Positions 11,562-53,266 of a stretch of DNA of 64,000 nt are shown piece by piece. Each line of letters begins with the position of its first letter. Positions within the stretch are counted from its first letter, which is position 1. Origin of the DNA: Acidimicrobiaceae bacterium (GTDB lineage Bacteria; Actinomycetota; Acidimicrobiia; Acidimicrobiales; Aldehydirespiratoraceae); assembly GCA_026706815.1 (NCBI GenBank), contig JAPOYA010000044.1, forward strand, positions 1 to 64,000. Direction: 5' to 3'. Below the pieces are notes generated by a model. The model was not told the DNA's origin. It searched no databases and worked only from the letters and a program-made list of their open reading frames with translations. The position numbers and the translations under genes are program-made.

Positions 11562-13796
<2,235 letters not shown>

Positions 13797-40911: not shown

Positions 40912-41205
40912 TCACTCCTCTGGGCTGGAGCATCCGCAGTTGGGGCGGGTTACGCCGAGCGTGTCGAGATGCGCAGAGTAAACGACTAGGAGTTCGTCTC
41001 CAGACAAAAACAGTGTGTCTATCAGGCGGTATCGGGCGTTGATGTCCTTGGGGGCCACATCTGCGTCAAGGTTGTAGTCGAAATCGATGGTGTCGTATCG
41101 GACCTCGCTCGCAAGCGTGGCGATCCGACCCGGCCGGCAAGCACTGGGTGAGAGCCACACGCCTACAGATGCCGACAGCCGTCTCACGCATGTGGCCCCA
41201 AGCAA
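40912..41205 (-). CDS. Doubtful small hypothetical protein between uvrB and uvrA
   Basis: A 97-codon frame with a TTG start. The C-terminal two thirds (VRYDTIDFDYNLDADVAP, RYRLIDTLFLSGDELLVVYS) have protein-like composition, while the first 30 codons do not. No family recognised. It sits in a 650-base stretch that interrupts the uvrB-uvrA pair and includes a protease relic, so it may itself be a remnant. Confidence 0.25.
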   Translation of the reverse strand: MLGATCVRRLSASVGVWLSPSACRPGRIATLASEVRYDTIDFDYNLDADVAPKDINARYRLIDTLFLSGDELLVVYSAHLDTLGVTRPNCGCSSPEE

Positions 41206-41251
41206 CCCAAAGACCAGAAAGGCAATCCGATGAACCGGACAACCCCACTAA

Positions 41252-41443
41252 TTTGCATACTGGCGCTGTCGATTTTCTGCACGCGATGTGGTCGGTTGCG
41301 AAGTGAGATCCAACATGGAAGGTGACTACGTCTGCCACTTCGGGATCTCTTCGGGCTATTCATGTGGCACCGTAGCTTCGACTACCCACGACCCCGAGGC
41401 ACCGGGTTCGAGTCCGCCGTCGAAGTATCGAGAGCTTTTTTGA
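41252..41443 (+). pseudogene. Relic of a streptogrisin-like S1 protease domain
   Basis: Between in-frame stops, the plus strand encodes NMEGDYVCHFGISSGYSCG followed by TVAST. This is the disulfide hairpin before the serine loop of bacterial trypsin-like proteases (pattern VCxxGxxSxxxCGxv), and aligns with VLCRTGYRSEACGQLIS of the protease at 51.5-52.5 kb. The GDSGGP motif and all catalytic residues are missing. A short, isolated fossil. Confidence 0.45.
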
Positions 41444-50704: not shown

Positions 50705-50755
50705 CGAAATCTGCGCGCTGAGCCACACTGGATGTAGTTATTCGGGCAGATTTCG
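50705..50755. repeat. 10-bp inverted repeat between polA and the prodomain gene
   Basis: CGAAATCTGC (50705-50714) and GCAGATTTCG (50746-50755) are exact reverse complements with 31 bases between. They lie between the stop of the prodomain gene and the polA start, both on the minus strand. A terminator without T run, a regulator site for polA, or the ends of a small lost element are all possible. Confidence 0.5.
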
Positions 50756-50789
50756 AAGAGGAGGAAGATCAGCACAAAACTCGGGGCCA

Positions 50790-51536
50790 TTACTCGTCGC
50801 CACCGTGGTCAATTAGGACGGGACCGAGATCTTCGACGACAATGAGTGGGTTGGCAGAGAGCGCATCGACCTTCCTGCGAAACTCCTCAGGCGCCAGCGA
50901 CGACTGCCCGATCACGACTCGCCCCCTCCGAAGCTCGACACCCACCTCGTAAAAGGGCACACCAGTTCCGAGACGGCTCCCACTGTCGACTAGATCCAGA
51001 ATTTCCCCCACATTCTGGGCAATTGCCTCCAGTTCTTCTCCAGAGACCGACGTCATTCGCACTTCTATCGTGACCAAATCCGCCGTTGCTGAAATTATCT
51101 CCGTGCCGAGTGCAGAATCATTTGTCATCACGACGAGGTGGCCGCCGAGTCCATGGTCAATTTGCAAACCGCCGATTCGAGCATCCTCGCCGAATACTTC
51201 TCTGAGCCACTTAGCTGCGATATCAGCATCACCCTGCGCGTTCATCTGATCCACGGCCTCTTGGATGGTCAGCTTATATGCAGACATGAGGGTCGGGATT
51301 TCTGTTGGGAGGCGTTCAGAGCCCGCGCCGTAAGGCAGTTCGTACGGCGGTCTGTCCCTGAGTCGATTCGCCAATTTTTCGATATCAGATTCCATTATTG
51401 TTGTTCTCGGTGTATCCGACTCAGCAGTCAACTGGTCCCCCATTCCAACTGCGAGCAGTGCCACCAATCCGAAGATCGCGAACACTGACAACAGAGCGAT
51501 AGCGAAGTACCTGCGAAACACTTCATGACCAGTCAT
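50790..51536 (-). CDS. Membrane-anchored protease prodomain without protease domain
   Basis: A 248-residue protein: a short cytosolic start, one hydrophobic segment (about residues 8-30, a signal peptide or anchor), then a domain that continues to the stop. Its end (KVDALSANPLIVVEDLGPVL) aligns with the residues immediately before the catalytic domain in the adjacent gene (KSNALATNPFVVVENLGPVV), and ESDIEKLANRL aligns with ETDVEELSLRL after that gene's signal peptide. So it is the propeptide of a streptogrisin-like protease ending where the enzyme should begin. The ATG at 51536 follows the neighbour's stop by 5 bases. Confidence 0.65.
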   Translation of the reverse strand: MTGHEVFRRYFAIALLSVFAIFGLVALLAVGMGDQLTAESDTPRTTIMESDIEKLANRLRDRPPYELPYGAGSERLPTEIPTLMSAYKLTIQEAVDQMNAQGDADIAAKWLREVFGEDARIGGLQIDHGLGGHLVVMTNDSALGTEIISATADLVTIEVRMTSVSGEELEAIAQNVGEILDLVDSGSRLGTGVPFYEVGVELRRGRVVIGQSSLAPEEFRRKVDALSANPLIVVEDLGPVLIDHGGDE

Positions 51537-51541
51537 GGGAA

Positions 51542-52529
51542 TCAAGTCCCGGTGTCTACGCGGATGGTGGGGACAACAGCTTGAAGTTCGCTGATGAACG
51601 TAAAGTAACTGTCTTCTTGAGACGTGCAGCCTGAGGAGTCGGAACTAGATTGATGGAGTCCGACCGCATAGTGGGTTTCTGGATCAAACACAGGTCCTCC
51701 TGAGTCGCCAGGGCAGGCACTGGTGTGCTCCAGTCGGCCGACGTTGGTATTCCCGTTCCTCGATATGCTCTTGGAGATGAGTTGGCCACAAGCTTCGCTT
51801 CGGTAACCTGTGCGGCACAAAACCCTGCCCAGTTCCGCCTCGGTTCTGCTCTGTGTGCCATAGATTGGCCAGGAACTGTCGATTGAACGCCAGATGTTGC
51901 CCTTGTCTTGAGCCATCGTGCCGCCGACGTTGTTGATGATCGAAGCGTCAACCGACCCAGAGTCCTGCTCCCAGGACTGGGTGCCCATGATAGGTCCTGA
52001 ACTGCCGCCGTGACGCACATAGTCGCCATTGTCCGCAGCACAATGTCCACCATTCAACAGATACCCCGAATACCCGAGACCTCCGTATACGTGCGTAGCG
52101 GTGAATCCAGTGGAGCACCTGCTGCCATCGGCAAACGCGGAAATGCCTCCCAGTTCCTTGCTGCAGCCGTTTGACGAACAAGCGTCACCGTGTCGATCGA
52201 ACACGACGGGTCCTAGGTTCTCAACAACCACAAACGGGTTCGTCGCCAGTGCGTTGGACTTAGCCTTAGCGTGGGTGACTATCACCATCAGCGTCCACAT
52301 TCGCTACGCTTCCGGTATTCGGCATCTGCGTCACGGCAAGCTGACTCAACCGAAGTGACAACTCCTCGACGTCTGTTTCGGAGATAGCCGCTTGTGCTGA
52401 ATCCGAAGCTGCTACCACGCTGGTTGATGTGATCAGAGCAGGAAGCAAGACCGAGACAAGAATGGATAGCAAACGCCTCGGACCAAGAAACCTGCTTCTC
52501 AGTGTTATCGGAGGTGGTGTTTGTTTCAT
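51542..52529 (-). pseudogene. Secreted streptogrisin-like S1 protease, prodomain deleted and frame broken
   Basis: Two overlapping frames. 52266-52529 encodes a signal peptide (hydrophobic residues 19-41) plus the first 35 residues of a prodomain. 51542-52300 encodes the last 30 prodomain residues and a complete chymotrypsin-fold domain with H86 (NGGHCAA), D118 (GSVDAS) and S200 (ACPGDSGGPV) of the triad. Compared with the neighbouring prodomain gene about 130-150 residues are missing at the junction, and the frames differ (a +1 shift would join them). Either a pseudogene, a sequencing indel, or a recoded gene. Confidence 0.65.
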
Positions 52530-52619
52530 CGGATTGCCTTTCCCGTGTAGTCAAGATGGATAAACGGGTCTTCGCGTTTTGGGTCGGAGTCGGGGTTTGT
52601 GGGGTGTCCGTGGCCTGAG

Positions 52620-53110
52620 AGTCGGGATCCCCCAGAATCAAGGTCGTAAACCATCAACCGAACCTGGGGATCCCGATGGAATGTGACCCTATACGCGTGT
52701 GTGAGTTGTTGGTAGGCCTTGGTGCAGTCGATGTGCTCGGTGTTGTCGACGGTGAACACGTTGAGCCGTTGGAGCTGCGTGCCGGTTGCCGCGCCGAGAG
52801 GCCGCCGTGTTCGGGTTGCGGCGGGTCGTTGTGGTCTGAAGGCAGCCGGGTTGTGGTGCTGGTGGATCTGCCGAGCTTCGGGCGTCCGACGCGGCTGGTG
52901 TGGCGCAAACGCCGCTGGTGTTGCCCCAGCGGTGGCTGCGGCGCAGGCTCGGTGACCGGGCAGAACCATCAGATCGCTGCGCCGAGAGCGTTGCTGACGA
53001 CGCGGGCCTTCGGGTGAACTGACTTCACCAACCACCGGATACGGGCACTCCTGTACGCCGGCAAACCCAACTGGAACCTACTCAACACCCTCACTCCCCC
53101 CTGAAATCCG
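52620..53110 (+). mobile_element. Internally deleted ISL3-type transposase remnant
   Basis: From the ATG at 52676 about 113 codons encode an ISL3-like transposase N-terminus: CSGCGG and CPSGGCGAG zinc-ribbon parts, VDLPSFGRPTRLVWRKRR, APRALLTTRAFG. After a TGA (53015-53017), still in the same phase, FTNHRIRALLYAGKPNWN to a second TGA at 53104 matches the transposase C-terminus. The catalytic middle is gone. A hairpin with arms GGGATCCC at 52624-52674 precedes the ORF. Complete terminal inverted repeats were not found. The gap 53111-53266 shows nothing else. Confidence 0.6.
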
Positions 53111-53266
53111 AAGAGCCGGACAAACTCACACGCATCAGATGACTGCTGGCCGACCGTAGTCGCGTGACTTCATCTAGTACTTGACGTCTCGAGCGCTTTT
53201 GTTGCAATATTTCGGAGATTTCTTGAAATCATTGCCTACGGTCGATTGGGGCCCAGCTCTGGAAGG

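Follow-up and report, generated by a model that had tools for sequence, protein, structure and literature searches.

A probably decaying S1 protease cassette with a conserved, putatively membrane-tethered prodomain-only paralogue in an Acidimicrobiaceae genome

Introduction

Alpha-lytic protease is the textbook example of a protein folded by a pro region that is covalently attached to it. The pro regions of this protease accelerate folding ca. 10^9-fold and place their C-terminus across the active site (PMC2829044). A comparable task is performed by a separate protein in case of Lif/LipH, a foldase that is anchored in the membrane and shares an operon with its lipase (PMC13381987). Genes encoding a protease propeptide alone are represented by SUB1-ProM, POIA1, and TgMIC5 (I9, subtilases) as well as crammer and CTLA-2 (I29, cathepsins), of which SUB1-ProM inhibits a subtilase and adjoins subtilase genes (PMC6993865). 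A literature search found no paper on a stand-alone prodomain of the alpha-lytic type, which is weak evidence of novelty given that most subscription journals lay outside this search.

Here, we describe a locus that resembles the alpha-lytic/streptogrisin-type S1 proteases (PF02983; PDB 2PRO, 3PRO, and 4PRO) in the fold and order of secondary structure elements of its prodomain, the place of this prodomain before an S1 domain, and the triad motifs, but differs from them in that the prodomain is also present as a separate, probably membrane-anchored gene product with a sequence beyond detectable PF02983. With Lif/LipH, it would share the logic of a steric chaperone with an N-terminal transmembrane anchor and an operon that includes the secreted client (PMC13381987), though fold and client appear unrelated and the homologous protease of a congener (genome G004) also carries a prodomain in cis. 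The comparison concerns the logic only. The 248-aa prodomain-only protein has no Pfam match, and its fold match in the PDB is the alpha-lytic pro region. Unlike the stand-alone propeptide inhibitors, which act on other protease classes and for which the available parts of the sources note no membrane anchor, the present case is bacterial and of the S1 alpha-lytic type. We consider it likely that the locus is a horizontally acquired, decaying S1 protease cassette of the alpha-lytic/streptogrisin type with a conserved membrane-tethered prodomain-only paralogue. With such a paralogue, this protease class would have a naturally occurring pro region that acts in trans, either as a foldase comparable to Lif or as an inhibitor akin to immunity proteins, and an intramolecular chaperone would be seen turning into a separate gene.

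Results and discussion

Architecture of the insertion

The window, i.e., the whole stretch of 64,000 nt that was analyzed (contig JAPOYA010000044.1 of GCA_026706815.1 from an Acidimicrobiaceae bacterium, a draft assembly of 65 contigs; positions are in window numbering unless assigned to another locus), carries the protease genes on an insertion between polA and an ANTAR-type regulator (50756-53262). The two flanking genes are 2.5 kb apart in the window versus 30 to 60 bp in all five of five congeners, and G004 has an empty site at polA with its protease pair located on another contig. Transcription on the minus strand runs from an ORF encoding a signal peptide and the initial ca. 45 prodomain residues (52529-52266, with its TAA stop at 52266-52268) through the remainder of the same protease gene in another frame (52300-51542, 252 aa; the final ca. 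20 to 25 prodomain residues and a complete S1 catalytic domain) to the prodomain-only gene (51536-50790, 248 aa), whose ATG lies five bases past the protease stop (TGA-N5-ATG coupling). Re-examination of the ORFs bore out the coordinates and gene descriptions of an earlier interpretation made from the bare DNA (hereafter, the sequence-only reading).

A remnant of an ISL3-family element with an internally deleted transposase is found 36 bp upstream of the protease ATG (52566-53117, plus strand; Zn_ribbon_ISL3 match with E=1.6e-6) between terminal inverted repeats (GGGTCTTCGCGTTTTGGG / GGCTCTTCGGATTTC) and flanked by an imperfect 8-bp target duplication (GGATAAAC / GGACAAAC, 7/8 identical). With this element omitted, the protease upstream region (52530-53262) aligns to that of G004 over 184 columns at a local score of 91 (shuffle maximum, 31), and the aligned part reaches the 5' portion (53126-53262) of a divergent ECF sigma-factor gene for which sigma domains were identified in G004. 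The element thus inserted into the sequence preceding the protease gene, and the window genome kept only the first codons of the sigma gene. On the other side of the insertion, a short palindromic repeat (TGAGCCACACTGGATGT...GCAGAT) adjoins it at the polA 5' end (50719-50751); congener G005 has one copy of this repeat at the same polA position without any insertion.

The prodomain-only protein

The 248-aa protein starts with a hydrophobic helix (residues ca. 9-33; KD19 maximum 2.84) by which it is probably anchored in the membrane, and its C-terminus reads ...VLIDHGGDE, with the stop falling at the codon that corresponds to the cysteine of GGDAC at the pro-mature boundary of the protease. No S1 catalytic domain follows the prodomain of the window gene, whose ORF ends at this boundary, whereas the paralogous prodomain in G004 does precede one. 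Sequence searches returned no Pfam match at E<=10, no NCBIfam or PDB match of note, and no PDB match for either single proteins or profiles.

An AF2 model built from an alignment of three sequences (pLDDT 73) comprises the N-terminal helix, three further helices, and then the order strand-strand-helix-strand-helix-strand-strand-helix-strand. Foldseek ranked chains of the alpha-lytic protease pro region (2pro/3pro) first to fourth in the PDB (E 4.5e-4 to 4.2e-3, probability 0.92-0.99), though TM-scores to this pro region are low (0.25-0.41) and the VIA comparison with 4pro_D covers 141 residues at Z 5.6 with an rmsd of 10.3 A. These low TM-scores and the high rmsd would fit two folds that share the order of their elements but differ in how the subdomains are arranged or, alternatively, an imperfect model. 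At the sequence level, a profile of three prodomains matches the N-terminal regions of other S1 proteases elsewhere in the order, and profile-profile comparison with the prodomains of four such proteases, one of which is recognized by PF02983, gave E 8.8e-7 and a probability of 91.5. These results support the assignment of the 248-aa protein as an alpha-lytic-type prodomain and are in line with the sequence-only reading, which had described it as a secreted or anchored prodomain ending where a catalytic domain should begin and had proposed modeling and a structural match to S1 prodomains as a check. An origin of the prodomain-only gene by tandem duplication with loss of the catalytic half is likewise supported.

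A protease without its prodomain core

The protease ORF (51542-52300) carries the triad motifs GHC (His), SVDAS (Asp), and GDSGGP (Ser) and matches Pfam Trypsin (PF00089) with E=1.3e-4, above the cut-off, but has no in-frame signal peptide. The latter is encoded by the upstream ORF (...AASDSAQAAISETDVEELSLRLSQL...NVDADGDSHPR, then stop). Compared to the full-length G004 relative, ca. 146 prodomain codons are absent between NVDA-DGD and KSNAL, and alignment places the junction of this deletion and the frame change at 52255-52285 (minus strand). A loss of 130 to 150 prodomain residues, with signal peptide and complete His-Asp-Ser domain in different frames, had already been read from the sequence. 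Both flanks of the gap are recognized by the prodomain profile independently (52184-52267, E=4.7e-6; 52272-52478, E=1.1e-5), which is far beyond chance. The sequence-only reading had further stressed that the two genes share matching ends on both sides of the gap; these ends are indeed homologous, but neither gene is thereby shown to be the missing half of the other, since the full-length prodomain is a common homologue of the two.

The gene thus encodes no exported proenzyme in one frame: the frames of signal peptide and catalytic domain differ, and the prodomain core is gone. Because most of the prodomain and the reading frame are lost, we infer that the window protease is probably dead. The catalytic domain itself has no stops and is strongly constrained, so that, with no further damage, the deletion is probably recent; either it occurred very recently or the catalytic domain is still in use. 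Programmed frameshifting was considered and rejected, as the overlap of the two ORFs contains neither a slippery heptamer nor a run of four identical bases, and nothing points to recoding of the frame break.

A mis-assembly across two similar prodomains could be suspected from their tandem arrangement in a draft of 65 contigs, but a collapse of copies would delete the intervening catalytic domain and not the middle of one prodomain, and the DNA of the two kinds of prodomain has diverged so far (pS about 0.7) that they would not be mistaken for each other, which makes such an artifact very improbable.

The pair in a congener

Close homologues of the pair are rare, with a homologue search across 397 genomes of the order detecting them only in two, the window genome and G004. 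A phylum sample of 396 genomes returned just the window's own locus, tblastn with the G004 protease found no match among plasmids and phages, and viral contigs likewise gave none, while a search of assembled contigs matched the G004 contig alone (JAHQYN010000068.1, contig 159, of an Acidimicrobiia MAG). The sequence-only reading had suggested looking for orthologous pairs in related genomes, and G004 provides one in identical order, with a protease carrying its prodomain in cis (L005 11105-12370, 421 aa in frame) followed by a prodomain-only gene (L005 10365-11108, 247 aa). The two prodomain-only proteins are 55% identical over their alignment and have in common the N-terminal anchor, the TGA-N5-ATG spacing, and the GGDE end directly before the stop. 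Given that G004 has the same prodomain-only gene beside a protease with cis prodomain, the prodomain-only form is older than the separation of the two loci.

The G004 gene does not look flawless either: the frames of its signal peptide (ATG at 12513; L005 12513-12370) and of the pro-protease differ by one base, at a TGATG overlap. This break, which may be a mutation, a sequence error, or a real feature, is a different one from that of the window, so that two independent lesions lie near the same gene end, and a fully intact protease is seen at neither locus (n=2, both draft assemblies). Directly past the stop of the G004 prodomain-only gene, two tandem C-terminal fragments of ISL3 transposases are found (L005 10066-10338); the pair thus adjoins remnants of ISL3 elements in both species, on one side in the window and on the opposite side in G004. 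Across the ECF sigma gene, G004 has a second prodomain-like ORF of 307 aa without in-frame catalytic domain (L005 14705-15628).

The comparison bears on the proposal of the sequence-only reading that two tandem copies had decayed in complementary ways. Duplication and loss of a catalytic half stand, but complementary decay in this lineage is unsupported, as the prodomain deletion is younger than the prodomain-only gene. For the two-gene foldase system that the sequence-only reading had also raised, an intact prodomain-protease gene in close relatives had been named as evidence against it, and the cis form of G004 is largely that, except for its signal peptide being out of frame.

In a working split system, the frame break would be recoded (or a sequence error), and the exported, prodomain-less protease would be folded in trans by the membrane-held prodomain-only protein. 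An intact and constrained catalytic domain, an intact prodomain-only gene with TGA-N5-ATG coupling, the foldase activity of alpha-lytic prodomains (PMC2829044), and the precedent of Lif, a foldase held in the membrane and encoded alongside its client in the same operon (PMC13381987), would all agree with this. We nevertheless regard it as quite unlikely: the G004 prodomain is in cis, the overlap lacks a slippery site, the IS remnant upstream and the lost sigma gene point to decay, and the prodomain deletion is known from the window genome only. A naturally split system in which a prodomain-less S1 protease is folded and then restrained by a membrane-anchored prodomain from the same message appears equally doubtful. 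Since the split in one genome looks like decay, it matters less, and the part worth following is the conserved membrane-anchored prodomain-only gene.

Selection and origin

Between the window and G004, the prodomain-only genes differ with dS ca. 1.3-1.4, dN 0.34-0.42, and pN/pS 0.45-0.51, while the catalytic domains are saturated for synonymous change with dN 0.15 and pN/pS 0.17. It follows from the pN/pS values and the lack of any stop that purifying selection acted on the prodomain-only form during much of the divergence of window and G004. For the window branch, the dN/dS estimate from three sequences has a 95% interval of 0.08-4.8 that is too imprecise to judge relaxed constraint.

The whole locus could also be dead, with the prodomain-only ORF a functionless leftover in both species, as the decay around it and its rarity (two of 397 genomes of the order) might suggest. 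This is unlikely, though somewhat less so than a split system, given two intact copies at dS >1 with pN/pS about 0.45-0.5 and the conservation of anchor, stop position, and gene coupling; in neutral simulations, a branch with 20% change acquired ca. 3.9 stops, and only 2.4% of runs stayed free of them.

For polA, dS between the two genomes is 0.75 and dN is 0.07, so that the pair, with dS from 1.3 to saturation, has diverged more than the genomes. Its GC content is 0.55 compared to 0.62-0.64 in the flanks. Higher divergence, lower GC, and the empty site would fit separate acquisition by the two species, and we infer horizontal transfer of the cassette.

We return to the reading of a decaying cassette with a conserved paralogue. 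The ancestral cassette would have comprised the divergent ECF-sigma gene, the upstream region, a gene for signal peptide, prodomain, and protease, and a translationally coupled prodomain-only gene that would have arisen by tandem duplication and loss of the catalytic half. Having landed between polA and the ANTAR regulator in the window genome, it would have had its protease upstream region split by the ISL3 element and its sigma gene cut to the 5' end; the protease would have been deprived of its frame and the bulk of its prodomain while the prodomain-only gene stayed intact.

The N-terminal helix may tether the prodomain-only protein to the membrane, where it would face outward. Given how old and well preserved its gene is, and from what is known of alpha-lytic pro regions, this protein probably attaches to the protease in trans as a separate folding helper or lock: as a tethered inhibitor that would protect the producer by keeping the protease inactive at the cell surface, and/or as an auxiliary foldase. 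Either of these roles would be likelier than that of a sole foldase because the G004 protease has its own cis prodomain. With its partner protease probably dead, the prodomain-only copy of the window may be an orphan.

Related loci elsewhere

Two further observations concern similar sequences at other sites. In genome G415, a putative lipoprotein (L040 3640-5403) has an alpha-lytic-like prodomain region, 26% identical to the G004 prodomain over 170 aa, and no S1 catalytic domain; it is possibly another stand-alone membrane-anchored prodomain. Within the window, what is left of a further, decayed S1 protease locus lies between uvrA and uvrB (40932-41380), of which 41288-41380 encodes 31 aa that are 64% identical to a protease of congener G002, and stretches near this segment match the G004 contig beside the G004 protease pair.
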